DNA of 64,000 nucleotides. It comes from Thermaerobacter subterraneus DSM 13965 (lineage in GTDB: Bacteria; Bacillota; Sulfobacillia; Thermaerobacterales; Thermaerobacteraceae). Below, one piece after another: positions 31,067 through 37,997 of this stretch. A program made the position numbers and the translations under genes. Numbering within the stretch: position 1 is the first letter of the stretch; the number at the start of each line of letters is the position of its first letter. The notes under the pieces are model-generated. The model was not told the DNA's origin. It did not search any database and worked only from the letters and a program-made list of their open reading frames with translations. The stretch spans positions 386,840 to 450,839 of the forward strand of contig NZ_JH976535.1 of NCBI RefSeq assembly GCF_000183545.2. The letters are read 5' to 3'.

Positions 31067-33727
31067 CTACCGCGCCGCCGTGCCCAGGGCGGAGCGGGCG
31101 GCCAGCACCCGCTCCCAGGCTTCGGCCGGCAGGGGGCGGTCGAAGCTGCGCAGCTCGGCCAGGCGGAACCCGTGCTGGCGGGCCAGGTCCTTCAGCCAGA
31201 GGATGGTCTCCAGGTTGAGGTCGGCCCCCAGGCTGGTGTGCCGGTAGTGGTGCTCCAGGGCCAGCATCATGGTCTCCGCCATGCAGGCATAGACCAGGCC
31301 GCGTTCGAAGCCGAAGTTCCACCCCATGGACGGCCGGCCGGGCACCTCGATGACGCCGCCGTCGATCACCAGCACGTCGGGCCGGGCATCGCCCACCTCC
31401 CGGCTGACGTTGGGCGGCCGGCTCAGGTCGCACACCACCGCTCCGAACTTCACGTTGCGCGGCGTGACCAGGTGGGCGGTGCTGCTGGTGGCGGTCACCA
31501 CCACGTCGGCCTGGGGCAGCATGGCGTCCAGGTCCGTGGTGACGACCAGGGGGCACCGCCCTGCCGCCAGCCAGGCTTCCAGCCGGGGGAGGAAGGCCTC
31601 GGCGGGTTCTGCGGGATCGGGCCAGCCGCCGAATTCCACCAGGACCTGCGCCAGCGGGCCCAGGGGCCGGCCCGAGGCCGCCAGGCTCAGCACGTGGCGG
31701 GCCAGATCGGCCGCCACCCGCAGCAGCCGCCGCCGGCTCTGCTCGGGCCGGGCCGGGTTGCCGATCAGCACCAGCCGGCGCACCTCACCGGCCAGCAGCA
31801 GGGCCGTCGCCCGCCCGATGGCGCCCGTGGCGCCCACCACGGCCACGGTTCCCTGGCCAAGGGGGAAGCCCAGCCGGCGGCTGGCTTCGGCAATGGCCTC
31901 CACGGCCGCCACCACGGTGAAGCTGTTGCCGGTGGTCAGGGCGACGCCGGCGTCCCGCAGGTGCAGCCCGCCCCGGGTGACCACCGAGGTGTAGGCGCCC
32001 AGCCCGACGATCCGGGCGCCGTTCTCGCGGGCCAGTTCGATGGCTTCCTCGATCTCCGCCACCGCCTCCGCCTGGGGCATGGCCAGGAACTCGTCGGCGG
32101 TGCGGGGGACGGCGTAGAACTCGCCGTAGGCGGTGGCCCCGGCCGCCGAGACCACCCGGGTCCGGCCGATGCGGAAGGGCTTGAGGAGGTGATTCCAACG
32201 ACCGGCCAGCTCTTCCAGCTCCGCCCGGCTGAAGGCGGCCAGGCTGGGATCAAACTCCGGGTAGTTCTCCAGGTCGACGGGATGAACCAGGAAGGCAAAG
32301 CGCCCTTCCCGGGGATCGCCGCTGGGGGCCACCGCCTCTTCCGGCTCGCGGGAGCGAACCGCCAGGAGGGCAGGCTGGTGGCGGGCGGGCCGGTCCACGG
32401 CCTGCCCGGTCGTCGCCTGCGGGCTGACCAGGTGCCGGAGCAGGGCAGCGGTGTCATCCCGGTCGATGAGTTCCACCACCCGCTCGATGGCGGCCAGGGC
32501 GTAGTCGCACTCCGCCCGGGTGGCGATGAGGGGCGGCTCGATGCGGATCACGTCGGCACCGTTCAGGGTCGGGGCGACCCGCAACCCCTCCACGTTGAGC
32601 AGGTACGAGGCGATGACCGGGGTGAGCAGCTCCTGCTCGCCCATCACTCCCAGCAGGTTGCCGGGGAAGGCCTCCCGGTCGACCCCGAACTGGATGCCCA
32701 GCATGAACCCCCGCCCCCGCACCTCCCGGATCACCCGGGGATGGCGCCGCTGGATGGCCAGCAGGCCCTGCCGCAGGTACTCGCCGGTCTCGGCCACGTG
32801 GCGGACCAGGGCCTGTTCGTCCCGGGTCAGGAGGTCCAGGGCGGCCAGGCCGGCCCGGCAGGCCAGGGTGTTGCCCGCGAAGGTCGAGGAGTGCTTGGTG
32901 GCGAACTCTTCTGTATACACCTCTTCGGTGCACAGCACGGCGCCGATGGGCATGAGGCCGCCGCCCAGGGCCTTTGCCAGGGTGATGGCGTCGGGTGTGA
33001 CGCCTTCCGCCTGGCAGGCGAAGAGCACGCCCGTACGGCCCAGCCCCGTCTGCACCTCATCGGCGATGAACAGCACCCCGTGGCGCCGGCACACCTCCCG
33101 GGCCTCGCGCAGGTAGCCGGGAGGCGGCACCACGATGCCGCCCTCGCCCTGGATCGGCTCGACCAGGAAAGCGGCGTACTCGCCCGGCCGGGCCGCCAGC
33201 GCCCGCTCCAGGGCCTCCAGGTCGCCGTAGGGCACCTTGTCGAAGCCCTCGGCCGGGGCGAAGAAGGCGTCCTGATAGGCTGCCCGGTGGGTGGCGGAGA
33301 GGGCACCGAAGGTCTTGCCGTGAAAGCCGTTGTCCGTGGAGAGGATCCGCGGCCGGCCGGTGGCCGCCCGGGCCAGCTTGATGGCCGCTTCCACCGCTTC
33401 GGCACCGCTGTTGGCAAAGGTCACGTAGCGCAGTCCCGGCGGCGCCACCTCGATCAGCCGCCGGGCCAGCTCGCCGGCGGCATTCAAGAAGGACGGCTGG
33501 ACGAAGGACGGCTCGCCGCGGTGGCGCGCCTCTTCCAGCGCCGCCCAGATCTCCGGCGGGTTGAAGCCGAAGGGCAGCGCGCCGTAGGCGGCGACGAAGT
33601 CCAGATAACGGCGGCCCTGGTCGTCCCAGAGCCAGCAGCCCTCGCCCCGGACAAACCGCTTGTCCATCTGGATCTGCTCGAGGAGCTCGGCCAGGTGGGG
33701 GTTGACATACTGCCGGAAAGGATGCAT
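31067..33727 (-). CDS. Fusion of class III PLP transaminase and acyl-ACP-reductase-like domain
   Basis: This is an 886-residue protein. Residues 1-430 are a class III aminotransferase: cofactor residues in TFANSGAEAVEAAIK, FIADEVQTGLGR (D223) and TLAKALGGG (Schiff-base K252), and FAGNTLACRAGLAALD. After a 50-residue linker, residues 480-886 resemble the cyanobacterial long-chain acyl-ACP reductase: VGLGAYTSVVTRGG, TTGNSFTVVAAVEAI, Rossmann VAVVGATGAIGRA, LPQADVVVTATSS, VIDGGVIEVPG, and VYACMAETMML, where Cys815 matches the acyl-enzyme cysteine. Such reductases make aldehydes from acyl thioesters and transaminases interconvert aldehydes and amines, so a coupled acyl-thioester/aldehyde/amine enzyme is plausible but inferred. 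Saccharopine-type reductase is the alternative. ATG 33727 has a GGAGGG site. The HTH gene lies 98 bp upstream. Confidence 0.85.
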   Translation of the reverse strand: MHPFRQYVNPHLAELLEQIQMDKRFVRGEGCWLWDDQGRRYLDFVAAYGALPFGFNPPEIWAALEEARHRGEPSFVQPSFLNAAGELARRLIEVAPPGLRYVTFANSGAEAVEAAIKLARAATGRPRILSTDNGFHGKTFGALSATHRAAYQDAFFAPAEGFDKVPYGDLEALERALAARPGEYAAFLVEPIQGEGGIVVPPPGYLREAREVCRRHGVLFIADEVQTGLGRTGVLFACQAEGVTPDAITLAKALGGGLMPIGAVLCTEEVYTEEFATKHSSTFAGNTLACRAGLAALDLLTRDEQALVRHVAETGEYLRQGLLAIQRRHPRVIREVRGRGFMLGIQFGVDREAFPGNLLGVMGEQELLTPVIASYLLNVEGLRVAPTLNGADVIRIEPPLIATRAECDYALAAIERVVELIDRDDTAALLRHLVSPQATTGQAVDRPARHQPALLAVRSREPEEAVAPSGDPREGRFAFLVHPVDLENYPEFDPSLAAFSRAELEELAGRWNHLLKPFRIGRTRVVSAAGATAYGEFYAVPRTADEFLAMPQAEAVAEIEEAIELARENGARIVGLGAYTSVVTRGGLHLRDAGVALTTGNSFTVVAAVEAIAEASRRLGFPLGQGTVAVVGATGAIGRATALLLAGEVRRLVLIGNPARPEQSRRRLLRVAADLARHVLSLAASGRPLGPLAQVLVEFGGWPDPAEPAEAFLPRLEAWLAAGRCPLVVTTDLDAMLPQADVVVTATSSTAHLVTPRNVKFGAVVCDLSRPPNVSREVGDARPDVLVIDGGVIEVPGRPSMGWNFGFERGLVYACMAETMMLALEHHYRHTSLGADLNLETILWLKDLARQHGFRLAELRSFDRPLPAEAWERVLAARSALGTAAR

Positions 33728-33825
33728 CCGGTGCCCTCCAATCCCGAAGAACCGTCTCCAGCTTGGAACGCTCTCCAGCCGGGTGCGCTCAGCCGGTGCG
33801 CCAGCCGCTCCAGCCGGTGCGCCAG

Positions 33826-34389
33826 CTAGGGAGCGGGCTCGCGCCCGCCGCGGTCGTCCCGCGGTAGCCGCAGCTGCCGGATCAGCTGGCGAATGGCTTC
33901 AGGGTCGACGAACCGGTCCTCGGTGATGGGCGACGTGCCGATCTGGATGCCCGTCACCCGGTCCGGCCCCAGGAGCGCTTCGACCAGCCGGATCCGCATG
34001 TCCGAGCCCAGGAAGATCAAGTGGTCCAGTTCCCGGGCGCGGGCGATGAGGGCCATGAGATCGTTGAGCAGGGCGGCGCCGCTGCGTTCCCCGATGAAGC
34101 GCCGGCGCTCCTCCTCGGTGAGCAGCCAGACGAAGTCGACACCCTCGCTGCGCGCCACGTCTTCCAGCGCCTCGCGGTTCCCTACGGGGAAGCCCACCAG
34201 GCCCAGCTTATGGCCCCGCCGCACCTCCCCCAGGCTTTCCAGGCGGGAGACCAGGGTCCGGTCGATGCCCAGCTCATGGGCCACGTCCTGCTGGGAGAGG
34301 CCGGAGGCGCGCAGCTCCAGGATGCGGTCGACCATCCGGTAGATCCGCTGCCGGTCGATCACCTTTTCGCCGACGCGCACCAGTTCCAC
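33826..34389 (-). CDS. HTH transcriptional regulator upstream of the transaminase fusion
   Basis: This is a 187-residue protein. Residues 12-55 (RIYRMVDRILELRASGLSQQDVAHELGIDRTLVSRLESLGEV) form a Cro/C1-type helix-turn-helix. The remaining 125 residues (KLGLVGFPVGNREALEDVARSEGVDFVWLLTEEE, then LDHLIFLGSDMRIRLVEALLG) are an alpha/beta domain I do not recognise, presumably for a ligand. GTG 34389 is chosen because the family-like part starts there and a near-perfect palindrome sits 28 bp upstream. The same strand and a 98-bp gap suggest it forms an operon with the transaminase fusion and controls it. Confidence 0.75.
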   Translation of the reverse strand: MELVRVGEKVIDRQRIYRMVDRILELRASGLSQQDVAHELGIDRTLVSRLESLGEVRRGHKLGLVGFPVGNREALEDVARSEGVDFVWLLTEEERRRFIGERSGAALLNDLMALIARARELDHLIFLGSDMRIRLVEALLGPDRVTGIQIGTSPITEDRFVDPEAIRQLIRQLRLPRDDRGGREPAP

Positions 34390-34417
34390 GCCTGCGCCCC
34401 CCGCCGCCGCCCGCCCT

Positions 34418-34452
34418 TGTGCACAAATATGCGCACAGTCACCCTGAGTATA
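34418..34452 (-). promoter_or_regulatory. Operator palindrome and -10 box of the regulator gene
   Basis: TGTGCACAAATATGCGCACA (34418-34437) matches its reverse complement at most positions, with perfect TGTGC/GCACA arms. A -10 TATACT is read on the minus strand at 34452-34447, placing the palindrome just downstream of the expected transcription start. A repressor bound there, most simply the adjacent HTH protein, would block its own operon. The -35 (TACCCA, minus strand near 34475) is weak. Confidence 0.6.
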
Positions 34453-34631: not shown

Positions 34632-35684
34632 ATGGCCCAGCCTTTCAAGCTCCTGGAGGAGCACCAGGATCCGGGCGGCACCGACCGGCACCGTGCCGGA
34701 GCCCTTGGATCCGCCGGTGGTGCGGAGGGGAAACCCCATCCAGGACCAGGGCCCGTGCTGGTGGTCCGGAACCTGGTCAAGCGGTTCGGGCGGAAGGCAG
34801 CGGTCGGCGGCATCTCCTTTGCGGTGGAACCCGGCGAGACCTTCGGGCTGTTGGGGCCCAACGGTGCCGGCAAGAGCACCACCCTGGCCATCATCGCGGG
34901 CCTGCTGAGGCCCGACGGTGGAGAAGTGGAGGTCGGCGGCTTCTCCCTGGCCGCCCGGCGCCGCGAAGCGCAGCGCCTGCTGGGGGTGGTGCCCCAGGAC
35001 CTTGCCCTCTACCCCGAGTTGACGGCAGCCCAGAACATGGGTCACTTCGCGGCCCTGCGCGGCCTGCGGGGCGCGGAAAAGCGCCGGCAGATCGAAGAAG
35101 CCCTGCATCTGGTGGGACTGGCGGAGCACGCGGGCCAGCGGGTGGAGCGGTTCTCCGGCGGCATGAAGCGGCGGCTCAACATCGCCATCGGCCTTCTAGG
35201 GCGCCCACGCCTGCTGCTCCTGGACGAACCCACCGTGGGCATCGACCCCCAGTCCCGCCGCCACATCCTGGAGGCCATCCGGAAGCTGGCTGCGTCCGGC
35301 ATCGCCGTCCTGTACACCAGCCACTACATGGAGGAGGTCGAGTTCCTCTGCCGGCGGGTCGCCATCATGGACCACGGCCGGATCATTGCCCAGGGGCCGC
35401 TGGACGAGGTCCGGGCCCTGGCGGGTGATGCCGCCATCCTGCGCCTGCCGTGGGACCCTGTGTACGTTGACGCGGATCCCCAGGCGGTCGCCCGCCAGCT
35501 GGGCGTCCCCGTCGAGGTGACGGGCGGCGAGGCCCGGTTCGTCCTGCCTGGGGGGCCGGAACAGGCAGCCCAGGTGGTCGCGGAACTGGTTCGCCGCGGC
35601 ATCCCGCTGCGCGGGATGCGTGTGGAAACGCCCGACCTGGAGACGGTGTTTCTGGCCCTGACGGGCCGGGCCCTGCGGGATTAG
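34632..35684 (+). CDS. ABC-2 exporter ATP-binding protein (DrrA/CcmA type)
   Basis: This 350-residue ATPase has Walker A GPNGAGKSTT, Q-loop GVVPQDLALYPELT, signature FSGGMKRRLNIAIG, Walker B LLLLDEPTVGID and switch His TSHYMEEVE. The C-terminal 80 residues (ETPDLETVFLALTGRAL) are typical of drug or lipid exporters of the DrrA class. An extra 45-residue polar N-terminus precedes the ATPase domain. ATG 34632 follows GGGAGTGAAG. It is followed directly by two permease genes, so it powers a heterodimeric exporter whose substrate is unknown. Confidence 0.92.
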   Translation: MAQPFKLLEEHQDPGGTDRHRAGALGSAGGAEGKPHPGPGPVLVVRNLVKRFGRKAAVGGISFAVEPGETFGLLGPNGAGKSTTLAIIAGLLRPDGGEVEVGGFSLAARRREAQRLLGVVPQDLALYPELTAAQNMGHFAALRGLRGAEKRRQIEEALHLVGLAEHAGQRVERFSGGMKRRLNIAIGLLGRPRLLLLDEPTVGIDPQSRRHILEAIRKLAASGIAVLYTSHYMEEVEFLCRRVAIMDHGRIIAQGPLDEVRALAGDAAILRLPWDPVYVDADPQAVARQLGVPVEVTGGEARFVLPGGPEQAAQVVAELVRRGIPLRGMRVETPDLETVFLALTGRALRD

Positions 35685-35696
35685 GGGGTTTCGGCC

Positions 35697-36878
35697 ATGG
35701 ACGGGTTGCGACAGGCAGGTCTCATCGCGGCCAACCAGCTGCTGCGCTTCGTGCTGGACTGGCGGGGCGTGCTGATCCTCTTCCTCCTGCCCCTGGCCTT
35801 CAACCTGGTGCTCGGGATAAGCCTGCGCCAGGCCTTCACCCCCGAATTCCGGCCCGAGCGGCCCTACCGGGTGGCGATCGCCGCGCCGGCCGGCCACCAA
35901 GCGGCGCCGGCAGTCCTGCAGGTCCTGGCAGCGGGGGAGGCGGACGGCTGGATCGAGATCCAGAGGGTGAAATCAGGCGAGGCCGCCGTGGGAGCGGTCC
36001 GGCAGCGCCGGGCCGATGCGGCCCTGATCGTGCCGGCGGGGTTCCCCCAGGAGCCCCTCAGGGTCATCGCCGAACCCGGGACGGTACCGGCCTCTGTGGT
36101 CGAGACCCTGGCCCGCGAGGCCGCGGCAGCGGCTGGGTCCGGCCCTGCCGGAGAGGCCGGTGGCGCCGGCGGGGGGGACAGCGGCCGCCCAGTGCCCGTC
36201 GACCTCACCATGCAGCCCGCACCCCCGCCGGCCGGTGGAGAGTCGCCTGGCAGCGGCGCGCCACCCGAGGTGGGTGCCATGGCTTATTACGCCGCAGGTA
36301 TGGCCGTCATGATGCTCTACCTGGCGACCCGCGAGGGGACCAGGGCCTACCTGGCCGACCGCAGCACCGGCGTGTACCTGCGCGTCCGTGCGGGAGGAAC
36401 CGGCCGCGCCGCCTACCTGGCGGGCACCTTCGCCGGCAGCGTGGCCACGGGCCTGGCCTTCATGGTGGTCATGGCGCTGGTCACCCGGTGGCTCTTCGGG
36501 GTCCACTGGGGCCACCCGGGGGGATGGATCCCCCTGACCCTGGCCGCCACTCTGGCGGCCGCAGGGGTCAATGCCGTCCTGGTGGGGCTTGCCAGGTCCC
36601 CGGAGGTGCTGGAGGGTGTCAGCATCGCCCTGGCCCAGGTGCTGGGGTTCTTCGGCGGGTCGATGATGCCCCTGTTCATCTTTCCCGAGATCCTGGCCCG
36701 GCTCTCCCGCTTCGTTCCCAACCGGTGGATGCTGGACGGCTTCCTTGAACTCATGGCCGGCGCAGGACCGGCAGCGGTTCAAGATGAAATCCTGCGCCTC
36801 ACGGCGGCGGGGGCGGCCTTGCTGATGGTGGGGTGGGCCCTGGACCAGCTCCTGGCACGATTGGTGGGGGAGGGGTGA
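35697..36878 (+). CDS. ABC-2 type exporter permease, first subunit
   Basis: This 393-residue membrane protein has the ABC-2 layout: one N-terminal helix (GVLILFLLPLAFNLVLGI), a large extracytoplasmic domain with a Gly/Pro-rich segment (about residues 140-185), then about five helices (MAYYAAGMAVMMLYLA, FAGSVATGLAFMVVMALV, LTLAATLAAAGVNAVLVGLA, LAQVLGFFGGSMMPLFIF). It starts 12 bp after the ATPase gene and ends 3 bp before the next permease gene, so the three form a tight operon. Its substrate cannot be inferred. Confidence 0.88.
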   Translation: MDGLRQAGLIAANQLLRFVLDWRGVLILFLLPLAFNLVLGISLRQAFTPEFRPERPYRVAIAAPAGHQAAPAVLQVLAAGEADGWIEIQRVKSGEAAVGAVRQRRADAALIVPAGFPQEPLRVIAEPGTVPASVVETLAREAAAAAGSGPAGEAGGAGGGDSGRPVPVDLTMQPAPPPAGGESPGSGAPPEVGAMAYYAAGMAVMMLYLATREGTRAYLADRSTGVYLRVRAGGTGRAAYLAGTFAGSVATGLAFMVVMALVTRWLFGVHWGHPGGWIPLTLAATLAAAGVNAVLVGLARSPEVLEGVSIALAQVLGFFGGSMMPLFIFPEILARLSRFVPNRWMLDGFLELMAGAGPAAVQDEILRLTAAGAALLMVGWALDQLLARLVGEG

Positions 36879-36881
36879 ACC

Positions 36882-37997
36882 GTGACGCCGGATGCGGGCA
36901 ATCGCCACCGGGGTGCCACCTTGCGGCGGGTAGCGGCCATTGCCGCCACCACCACGCGCCGGACCCTGCTGCGGCCGCTCAACCTGCTGTGGCTCCTGAT
37001 CGTCCCTCTGTTCTTCGGCGGTGTGATAGCAAGCCTGTTCGCCCCATCAGACAAGCCGCCGAGGCTGGCGGTGGTGGTCGAAGATCAAGGGACTTGGGTG
37101 GGTCCGTTGCTGGACGGCCTGTCCGCCACGCCCATGAACCTGCAGCGCCTGGCACGGGACGAAGCCACCGCGCGCCTGCACCAGGGCAGGGAGCGGGTGG
37201 TGCTCCTGATTCCCGACGGCTTTTCCCGGTCGGTCGAAGCAGGCGTGCCGCGGCTGGAACTCTGGTACGCTCCGCGGGCCGAGCCCGGCGCAGAAATCGC
37301 TAGGATCCGGACGGTAGCGGCCGGCCTCGTTACCGGAACGCCCGCGGGTCCTCTGTCGTTGGTGGTCAAAGCACCGCGGCAGGCAGCCGCGGCGGGCGAC
37401 TTTGCGCTGTTGCGCACGGTCTACGGGTTCTACGTCATGTTCGCCCTGGTCTCCCTCATCACCCAGGCGGCCGCCCTGCACCGGGAACGGGAGCTGGGCA
37501 CCCTGTCCCGCTCGCTGGTGGCGGGGGCCACCTACGGCGAGATGGTGGCCGGCCACGCCCTGGCGCTGTTCCCCCTTGGGCTGTTGCAGGCGGCGGCCAT
37601 GGTGGGCGTCACGGCGCTGGGCGGTGCTCCGTGGTTCGCCGCCGGCCTGCCGGCCCTGGTCCTGGTCTTGATCGCACCTCTGGTGGCCGCATGCGGCATC
37701 GCCCTGGCGGTGGCAGGGTTCACCCGCACGTCGCGGCAGATCAACGCGGCCGGCTCGCTGGTGGGCACCATTGCCGCCATGCTGGGCGGCGCGTTCTGGC
37801 CTCTGGACGTGGTTCCGGTGTCCCTGCAGGAGGTGGCGCGGCTCAGCCCGGTGTATTGGGCGTTGGACGGATTGCGTGAGGCTTTCGTCTTCGGTGGCCC
37901 GGGTGCGGCCCAGTGGCCGGCGGCGGCGACCCTGGTGCTGATGGGGGTGCTGGCGGGGACGGCCGGTGTCCTGGGACTCCGCCGCTGGGCGGCTTAG
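36882..37997 (+). CDS. ABC-2 type exporter permease, second subunit
   Basis: This 371-residue protein has the same architecture as the preceding gene: N-terminal helix LLWLLIVPLFFGGVIASLF, an external domain (residues 50-170), and C-terminal helices FYVMFALVSLITQAAAL, LALFPLGLLQAAAMVGVTAL, LVLVLIAPLVAACGIALAVAGF and TLVLMGVLAGTAGVLGL. The family motif GGAFWPLDVVPVSLQEVARLSPVYWALDGLRE is clear. The start is GTG 36882. It presumably forms a heterodimer with the upstream permease. Confidence 0.88.
   Translation: MTPDAGNRHRGATLRRVAAIAATTTRRTLLRPLNLLWLLIVPLFFGGVIASLFAPSDKPPRLAVVVEDQGTWVGPLLDGLSATPMNLQRLARDEATARLHQGRERVVLLIPDGFSRSVEAGVPRLELWYAPRAEPGAEIARIRTVAAGLVTGTPAGPLSLVVKAPRQAAAAGDFALLRTVYGFYVMFALVSLITQAAALHRERELGTLSRSLVAGATYGEMVAGHALALFPLGLLQAAAMVGVTALGGAPWFAAGLPALVLVLIAPLVAACGIALAVAGFTRTSRQINAAGSLVGTIAAMLGGAFWPLDVVPVSLQEVARLSPVYWALDGLREAFVFGGPGAAQWPAAATLVLMGVLAGTAGVLGLRRWAA

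Follow-up and report, generated by a model that had tools for sequence, protein, structure and literature searches.

Upstream of a gene for a transaminase-reductase fusion in Thermaerobacter subterraneus DSM 13965 lies a gene for an HTH regulator, itself preceded by a palindrome. The locus raises the question of whether the regulator controls its own gene and the fusion through this palindrome, and which pathway is switched in this way. The palindrome, the proteins and their relatives were analysed starting from the window, the whole stretch of 64,000 nucleotides containing the locus. Judged by comparison of sequences, the regulator is very probably an autorepressor of acyl-to-amine genes, which are here collapsed into one operon with one operator.

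The predicted regulator operon and operator

The original prediction placed a near-perfect dyad just past a TATACT box and 28 bp before the regulator start, and the regulator 98 bp upstream of the fusion. Both placements were confirmed, the dyad at 34418-34437 and the 98 bp between the fusion start at 33727 and the regulator stop at 33826 (Table 1). The palindrome lies 9 bp past TATACT and 28 bp before the regulator GTG, is self-complementary at 16 of its 20 positions and has one mismatch to the cross-species consensus. It is the sole match with three or fewer mismatches both in the window, where 100 shuffles gave none, and in the 2.89 Mb genome.

Table 1. Positions of the features discussed; window positions unless a genome or locus is named.
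Feature	Position	Strand	Remarks
Regulator gene	33826..34389	(-)	187 aa; GTG start 34389, TAG stop 33826
HTH part, residues 13-58	34216..34353	(-)	AlphaFold model; weak HTH_31/HTH_3 matches
C-terminal Rossmann-like domain, residues 60-174	33868..34212	(-)	presumed ligand-sensing; GFP, LGSDMR and SP motifs conserved
Operator (predicted), minus strand TGTGCGCATATTTGTGCACA	34418..34437	(-)	conserved as TGTRYACA-N4-TGTRYACA
-10-like box TATACT	34447..34452	(-)	from sequence; similar boxes before the site in relatives
Regulator-fusion gap	33728..33825	(-)	GGAGGG ribosome-binding site
Transaminase-reductase fusion	31067..33727	(-)	886 aa
Fusion residues			PLP lysine candidate K252; GATGAIG 632-638; catalytic cysteine candidate C815
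Class-III transaminase domain, residues 1-430	32438..33727	(-)	Pfam Aminotran_3 E 4e-95; best PDB match 4ppm
Acyl-ACP-reductase-like domain, residues 471-886	31070..32317	(-)	PDB matches 4ppm and 6jzq
q5d of the window genome	G000:C1:5989-6894		
q5d of L003	L003:6574-7494		

Proteins bound downstream of a -10 box usually block initiation, and because the operator lies between the -10-like box and the ribosome-binding site, repression is the expected effect. A sigma-70 scan of the window promoter found no promoter and no good -35. Poor -35 elements occur at activated promoters, and the regulator might therefore be an activator or a dual regulator at the same operator; this is improbable, since at most of the targets read the site is downstream of the -10 box, where a bound protein would be an obstacle. 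Repression is thus the preferred reading. No terminator was found between the regulator and the fusion (33728-33825), which fits co-transcription of the two genes but is no proof of it. The length of this GC-rich gap varies within the genus, being 98 bp here and ca. 256-355 bp in L060, L061 and L062 when counted from the last aligned regulator codon.

The regulator protein

The start codon of the regulator is consistent with the starts of its relatives in sequence comparison. The protein had been predicted to be of Cro/C1 type, of which a weak resemblance to HTH_31 and HTH_3 remains: both families matched at E ~1e-4, under the Pfam cut-offs, and the score for HTH_3 (PF01381) was 21.9 bits against a gathering score of 23. 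As 28 of 30 relatives also matched HTH_3 at E values up to 0.1, the regulator HTH is likely a distant relative of that family.

The AlphaFold model of the regulator (30 sequences, mean pLDDT 81) consists of an HTH and a Rossmann-like alpha/beta domain. The 125-residue sensor domain proposed earlier corresponds to a conserved C-terminal domain, predicted as one Rossmann-like alpha/beta unit, but its extent is approximately residues 60-174. It was rightly called unrecognised, being outside the Pfam and NCBIfam libraries: profile searches of both gave no family match. With the sensor domain as query, Foldseek gave no match at E 0.001 or better and VIA-align only generic alpha/beta folds (Z ~6), so the structure searches could name no ligand. 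The archaeal transcription regulator 8hnp was rejected as a match of the regulator, its profile similarity being convincing over the HTH only. The regulator is a member of an undescribed protein family, and a literature search, with most subscription papers outside its coverage, found no publication on it or its regulon.

Conservation of the regulator and its site

A scan of species genomes for the regulator identified 29 loci with 39-76% identity over nearly all of residues 1-174. They belong to Bacillota (including Halanaerobiales) and Atribacterota, and one record has the label Armatimonadetes. Of the 29 loci, 27 had the site TGTRYACA-N4-TGTRYACA, with at most one mismatch, ahead of the regulator; of the two others, L005 begins inside the region and L007 is without the site. 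In the shuffle control, 152 of 29,000 shuffled upstream regions had the site with up to three mismatches. The operator lies over the regulator's own promoter and is conserved there in relatives, as in an autorepressor. The original prediction had proposed conservation upstream of orthologues of both genes as its test, and the palindrome was found not only at the 27 regulator loci but also ahead of fusion orthologues or of the separate reductase and transaminase genes, including those that lie apart from the regulator.

Among the 41 genomes representing the species itself, its genus, family, order and class, the regulator was found in 28, and 19 of these had the site with up to three mismatches near the regulator start. 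Upstream of the regulator the site is missing in L007 and in several class genomes, most of which have it at the target gene. Since six genomes (G012, G026, G030, G032, G033 and G037) have the site at the enzyme gene and none upstream of the regulator, enzyme control may be a more constant feature than autoregulation. Linkage of regulator and fusion in other genomes, the second proposed test, was also found: the two genes are adjacent in five of the 41 genomes (genus and family) and clustered, with one gene in between, in G028. The prediction was refuted by neither test.

In a phylum sample of 249 genomes, the site was present in 131 of the 156 genomes with the regulator and in 28 of the 93 without it (Fisher p ~1e-17, odds ratio ~12), with altogether 193 and 37 sites, respectively. 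Reversed-pattern control sites numbered 25 and 15 in the same groups, a similar rate per genome. Two of the 156 regulator calls are weak HTH-level matches, the reassignment of which leaves the result intact. At least 41 of the sites listed are placed 10-135 bp ahead of the start of a regulator gene.

Binding of the palindrome by some other, global regulator, with the linked HTH protein as a bystander, would account for its presence in the 28 regulator-less genomes, including G100 where it precedes a transaminase-reductase gene. Such a role is very unlikely, as the sites track the presence of the regulator and occur at the regulator itself in most loci, and the similar frequency of the reversed-pattern controls in both groups indicates that part of the 28 is due to chance. 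The comparisons support a widely conserved pair of regulator and operator, and with it the interpretation of the locus as a switch. Its description as self-contained holds for the present genome with its one site, but the switch belongs to a wider regulon. A chance palindrome was ruled out by uniqueness in the window and the genome, conservation in the regulator loci and the regulator-linked distribution.

Operator sites outside the regulator locus

With at most one mismatch allowed, 31 sites were found in the 41 genomes, of which 14 are at the regulator and one is at a contig end beside a dus-like gene, which may be a regulator locus split between contigs. The remaining 16 sites are unlinked. 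Thirteen of them precede a transaminase (five, counted as class-III members, the specific orthologues not being set apart by a tree), an oxoamine synthase (five), a stand-alone reductase (two) or q5d (one), and three are without an assigned target.

A weight matrix was built from regulator sites only and then used on the target promoters of the class. In G024 it found a site before the fusion, which is unlinked there, and in G029 and G030 before the oxoamine synthase, with weaker sites at the transaminases of G015 and G036; at the targets of G008, G009, G017, G025 and G034 the site was weak or absent. In class genomes without the regulator, 23 promoters of transaminase, reductase or q5d genes were scanned, and in none did a site score above 1.

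For 26 of the 29 loci the genome was scanned as well, giving 37 sites, 25 of them at the regulator. Half of the 12 unlinked sites are at targets (two transaminases, three fusions and one reductase) and the other six are without an assigned target. The three fusion sites (G066, G057 and G056) precede transaminase-reductase fusions on contigs other than that of the regulator, and the reductase site is in G045, the genome of L007. Also in G056, TGTATACA-type palindromes that fit the consensus lie beside regulator genes (L175 and L176), which we take to be GntR-like from the look of the protein; these palindromes probably belong to another system.

Before unlinked sites of the phylum sample were read, the prediction was noted that they would be followed by a gene for a transaminase, a fusion, an oxoamine synthase or a reductase. 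Among the unlinked sites listed, 11 of 15 agreed (four transaminases and seven oxoamine synthases) and four did not. Five of the sites listed came from genomes without a detected regulator, one at the transaminase-reductase gene of G100 and four elsewhere. The G100 locus (L195; G100:C3:67500-72500), in a genome where the regulator was not detected, has a perfect operator followed by a half-site-like TGTACACA before that gene.

Many targets have a -10-like box just before the operator and a ribosome-binding site after it. The autorepression geometry proposed for the regulator, with the predicted operator right after a -10-like box, was found in the window and recurs at many unlinked targets. 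The operator looks to mark a wider regulon of predicted acyl-to-amine genes, apparently unstudied.

Gene neighbourhood

In the 29 loci the next gene after the regulator is 27 times q5d, coding for a protein of ~305 aa, the tested member of which had no Pfam or NCBIfam family match. A stand-alone acyl-ACP-reductase-like gene comes next in 21 of the 29. The other eight comprise one fusion (L002), four alpha-oxoamine synthases (all Atribacterota), a divergent transaminase (L007), a contig end (L020) and one locus with no reductase (L021). The genes greA and lysS are frequently found downstream. In the genus and family of the window the fusion directly follows the regulator; in G028 q5d is in between.

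As well as being the commonest neighbour of the regulator, q5d is present in all 41 class genomes, including the regulator-less ones. Its predicted model (pLDDT 87.5) is closest to acyl-ACP reductase (6jzq; Z 15.1, rmsd 4.1, 247 residues), followed by related TAD chains and then glutamate dehydrogenase at Z 10.8. Despite this ranking of the predicted fold, sequence kinship between q5d and the reductase was unsupported (hhalign E 0.12).

ABC transporter genes (34632-37997) are divergent from the regulator, and their ATPase and first permease adjoin the regulator in the three other genomes of the genus. That the palindrome mainly controls this divergent operon (34632 onwards) and not the fusion, as the predicted ATG ~195 bp from the palindrome and the adjoining ATPase gene of the three genomes could suggest, is very unlikely: of the 12 loci tested only those three genus ones have a close copy near the regulator, other lineages have a dus-like gene or others upstream of it, and no transporter was recognised as a target among the unlinked sites read.

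The fusion enzyme and alternative routes

The fusion has the architecture of TamH, with an N-terminal class-III transaminase (Aminotran_3 match over residues 25-417) and a C-terminal reductase resembling acyl-ACP reductase (AAR). GATGAIG at 632-638 provides the nucleotide motif GxxGxxG, and C815, the candidate for the cysteine of PigE and AAR, is aligned with PigE Cys296 (PMC8341465). The fusion scored 584.6 bits with the PigE equivalog NF053554, against a cut-off of 850. With the acyl-ACP reductase equivalog TIGR04058 (cut-off 449.7), the window genome gave two pieces of 40 and 36 bits and the L003 protein 117 bits. PtTamH and PtTamA are reported to act jointly in vitro in turning fatty acids into amines (PMC9594044). 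By analogy, the fusion would convert acyl-ACP to a primary long-chain amine.

A plasmid search with the reductase gave 16 records, 13 annotated as class-III aminotransferase, at 24-41% identity. TIGR04058 matches in four of 14 control genomes, including Thermus composti and Deinobacterium chartae, are a hint only, with one above the cut-off; Synechococcus elongatus is the only known carrier among them.

A reductase, fused or separate, is present in 33 of the 41 class genomes, and the other eight coincide exactly with the genomes that have an oxoamine synthase close to that of L093 (at least 57%, L093's own genome included, with the next matches at 49% or less). The chance figure for this exclusion, 1e-8, is for 41 genomes of one class and ignores kinship. 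The nearest types of the oxoamine synthase are Kbl, serine-palmitoyltransferase and BioF. On the regulator tree, together with four Atribacterota rows, the label of reductase or synthase switches four times or more, so that a single event does not explain the exclusion. The reductase-transaminase set and the oxoamine synthase appear to be alternative ways of making a long-chain amine or amino ketone.

Proposed mechanism and significance

The regulator, presumably as a dimer, would occupy the 20-bp palindrome immediately after the -10 box, blocking the transcript that codes for itself and the fusion. The fusion, like TamH, would turn an acyl-ACP thioester into an aldehyde and this, by transamination, into a long-chain amine. 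Across Bacillota (including Halanaerobiales) and Atribacterota the regulator family would govern the acyl-to-amine step in cis or in trans, whether carried out by the fusion, by a separate reductase and transaminase, or with an alpha-oxoamine synthase replacing the reductase. Repression would be set by a small molecule at the C-terminal domain, for which an acyl or amine intermediate of this pathway is the simplest candidate. What the comparison shows is the operator, how it is linked to the regulator, where it lies and which genes it targets; binding, the sign of control, the ligand and the product are what we infer.

It is conceivable, if somewhat doubtful, that the regulator switches the supply of alkylamine for N-glyceroyl alkylamine (phospho)glycolipids and that its C-terminal domain is a new sensor of an acyl or alkylamine intermediate. 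Reductase and transaminase, fused or separate, would then make the alkylamine, and in lineages with the serine-palmitoyltransferase-like synthase the product would be a sphingoid-type base. Naming the alkylamine of these lipids as the pathway product is a guess, made because such lipids are reported in Bacillota and an alkylamine in Thermus lipids. Moorella thermoacetica is listed with them in a table of PMC13274423, and a 2025 paper cited there deals, by its title, with the dominance of such lipids in several Bacillota. Thermus lipids contain an alkylamine (PMC9636437). The literature search, most subscription papers being outside its coverage, found no enzymes for this alkylamine membrane-lipid step. 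If the lipid reading is true, the present genes are candidates for it. The enzyme set makes alkylamine-lipid biosynthesis in Bacillota directly testable.

With the autorepressor reading, the binding site and target genes of an undescribed regulator family can be predicted in many bacterial families, most of them known only from genomes. A TamH-like amine-forming enzyme would be linked to a pathway that is widely conserved and lies outside pigment clusters, and reductase, transaminase and oxoamine synthase would form a small set of seemingly interchangeable routes to long-chain amines.

Comparison with known systems

The regulator shares with Cro/C1 (HTH_3) regulators that have an effector domain the general type of HTH and an operator over the transcription start. 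It differs from them in its HTH, which scores under the HTH_3 and HTH_31 cut-offs, and in its C-terminal domain, which is in no family library searched. The redox repressor Rex likewise combines a DNA-binding domain with a Rossmann-like domain, and Rex chains were among the weak Foldseek rows for the sensor domain (E 0.02 or worse, TM ~0.25), but no sign of NAD(H) binding was found for the regulator.

PtTamH of tambjamine synthesis (PMC9594044) and PigE of prodigiosin synthesis (PMC8341465) each join a class-III transaminase to an AAR-like thioester reductase, as the fusion does. The domain order of PtTamH is that of the fusion. PigE has the reductase cysteine motif CMAET in common with the fusion, but its domain order is reversed. 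Unlike the fusion, both sit in pigment gene clusters, and the available parts of the two papers mention no regulator of the present family. The cyanobacterial AAR (6jzq/6jzy) is homologous to the reductase domain of the fusion; it feeds an aldehyde oxygenase for alkanes, whereas the partner of the reductase here is a transaminase.
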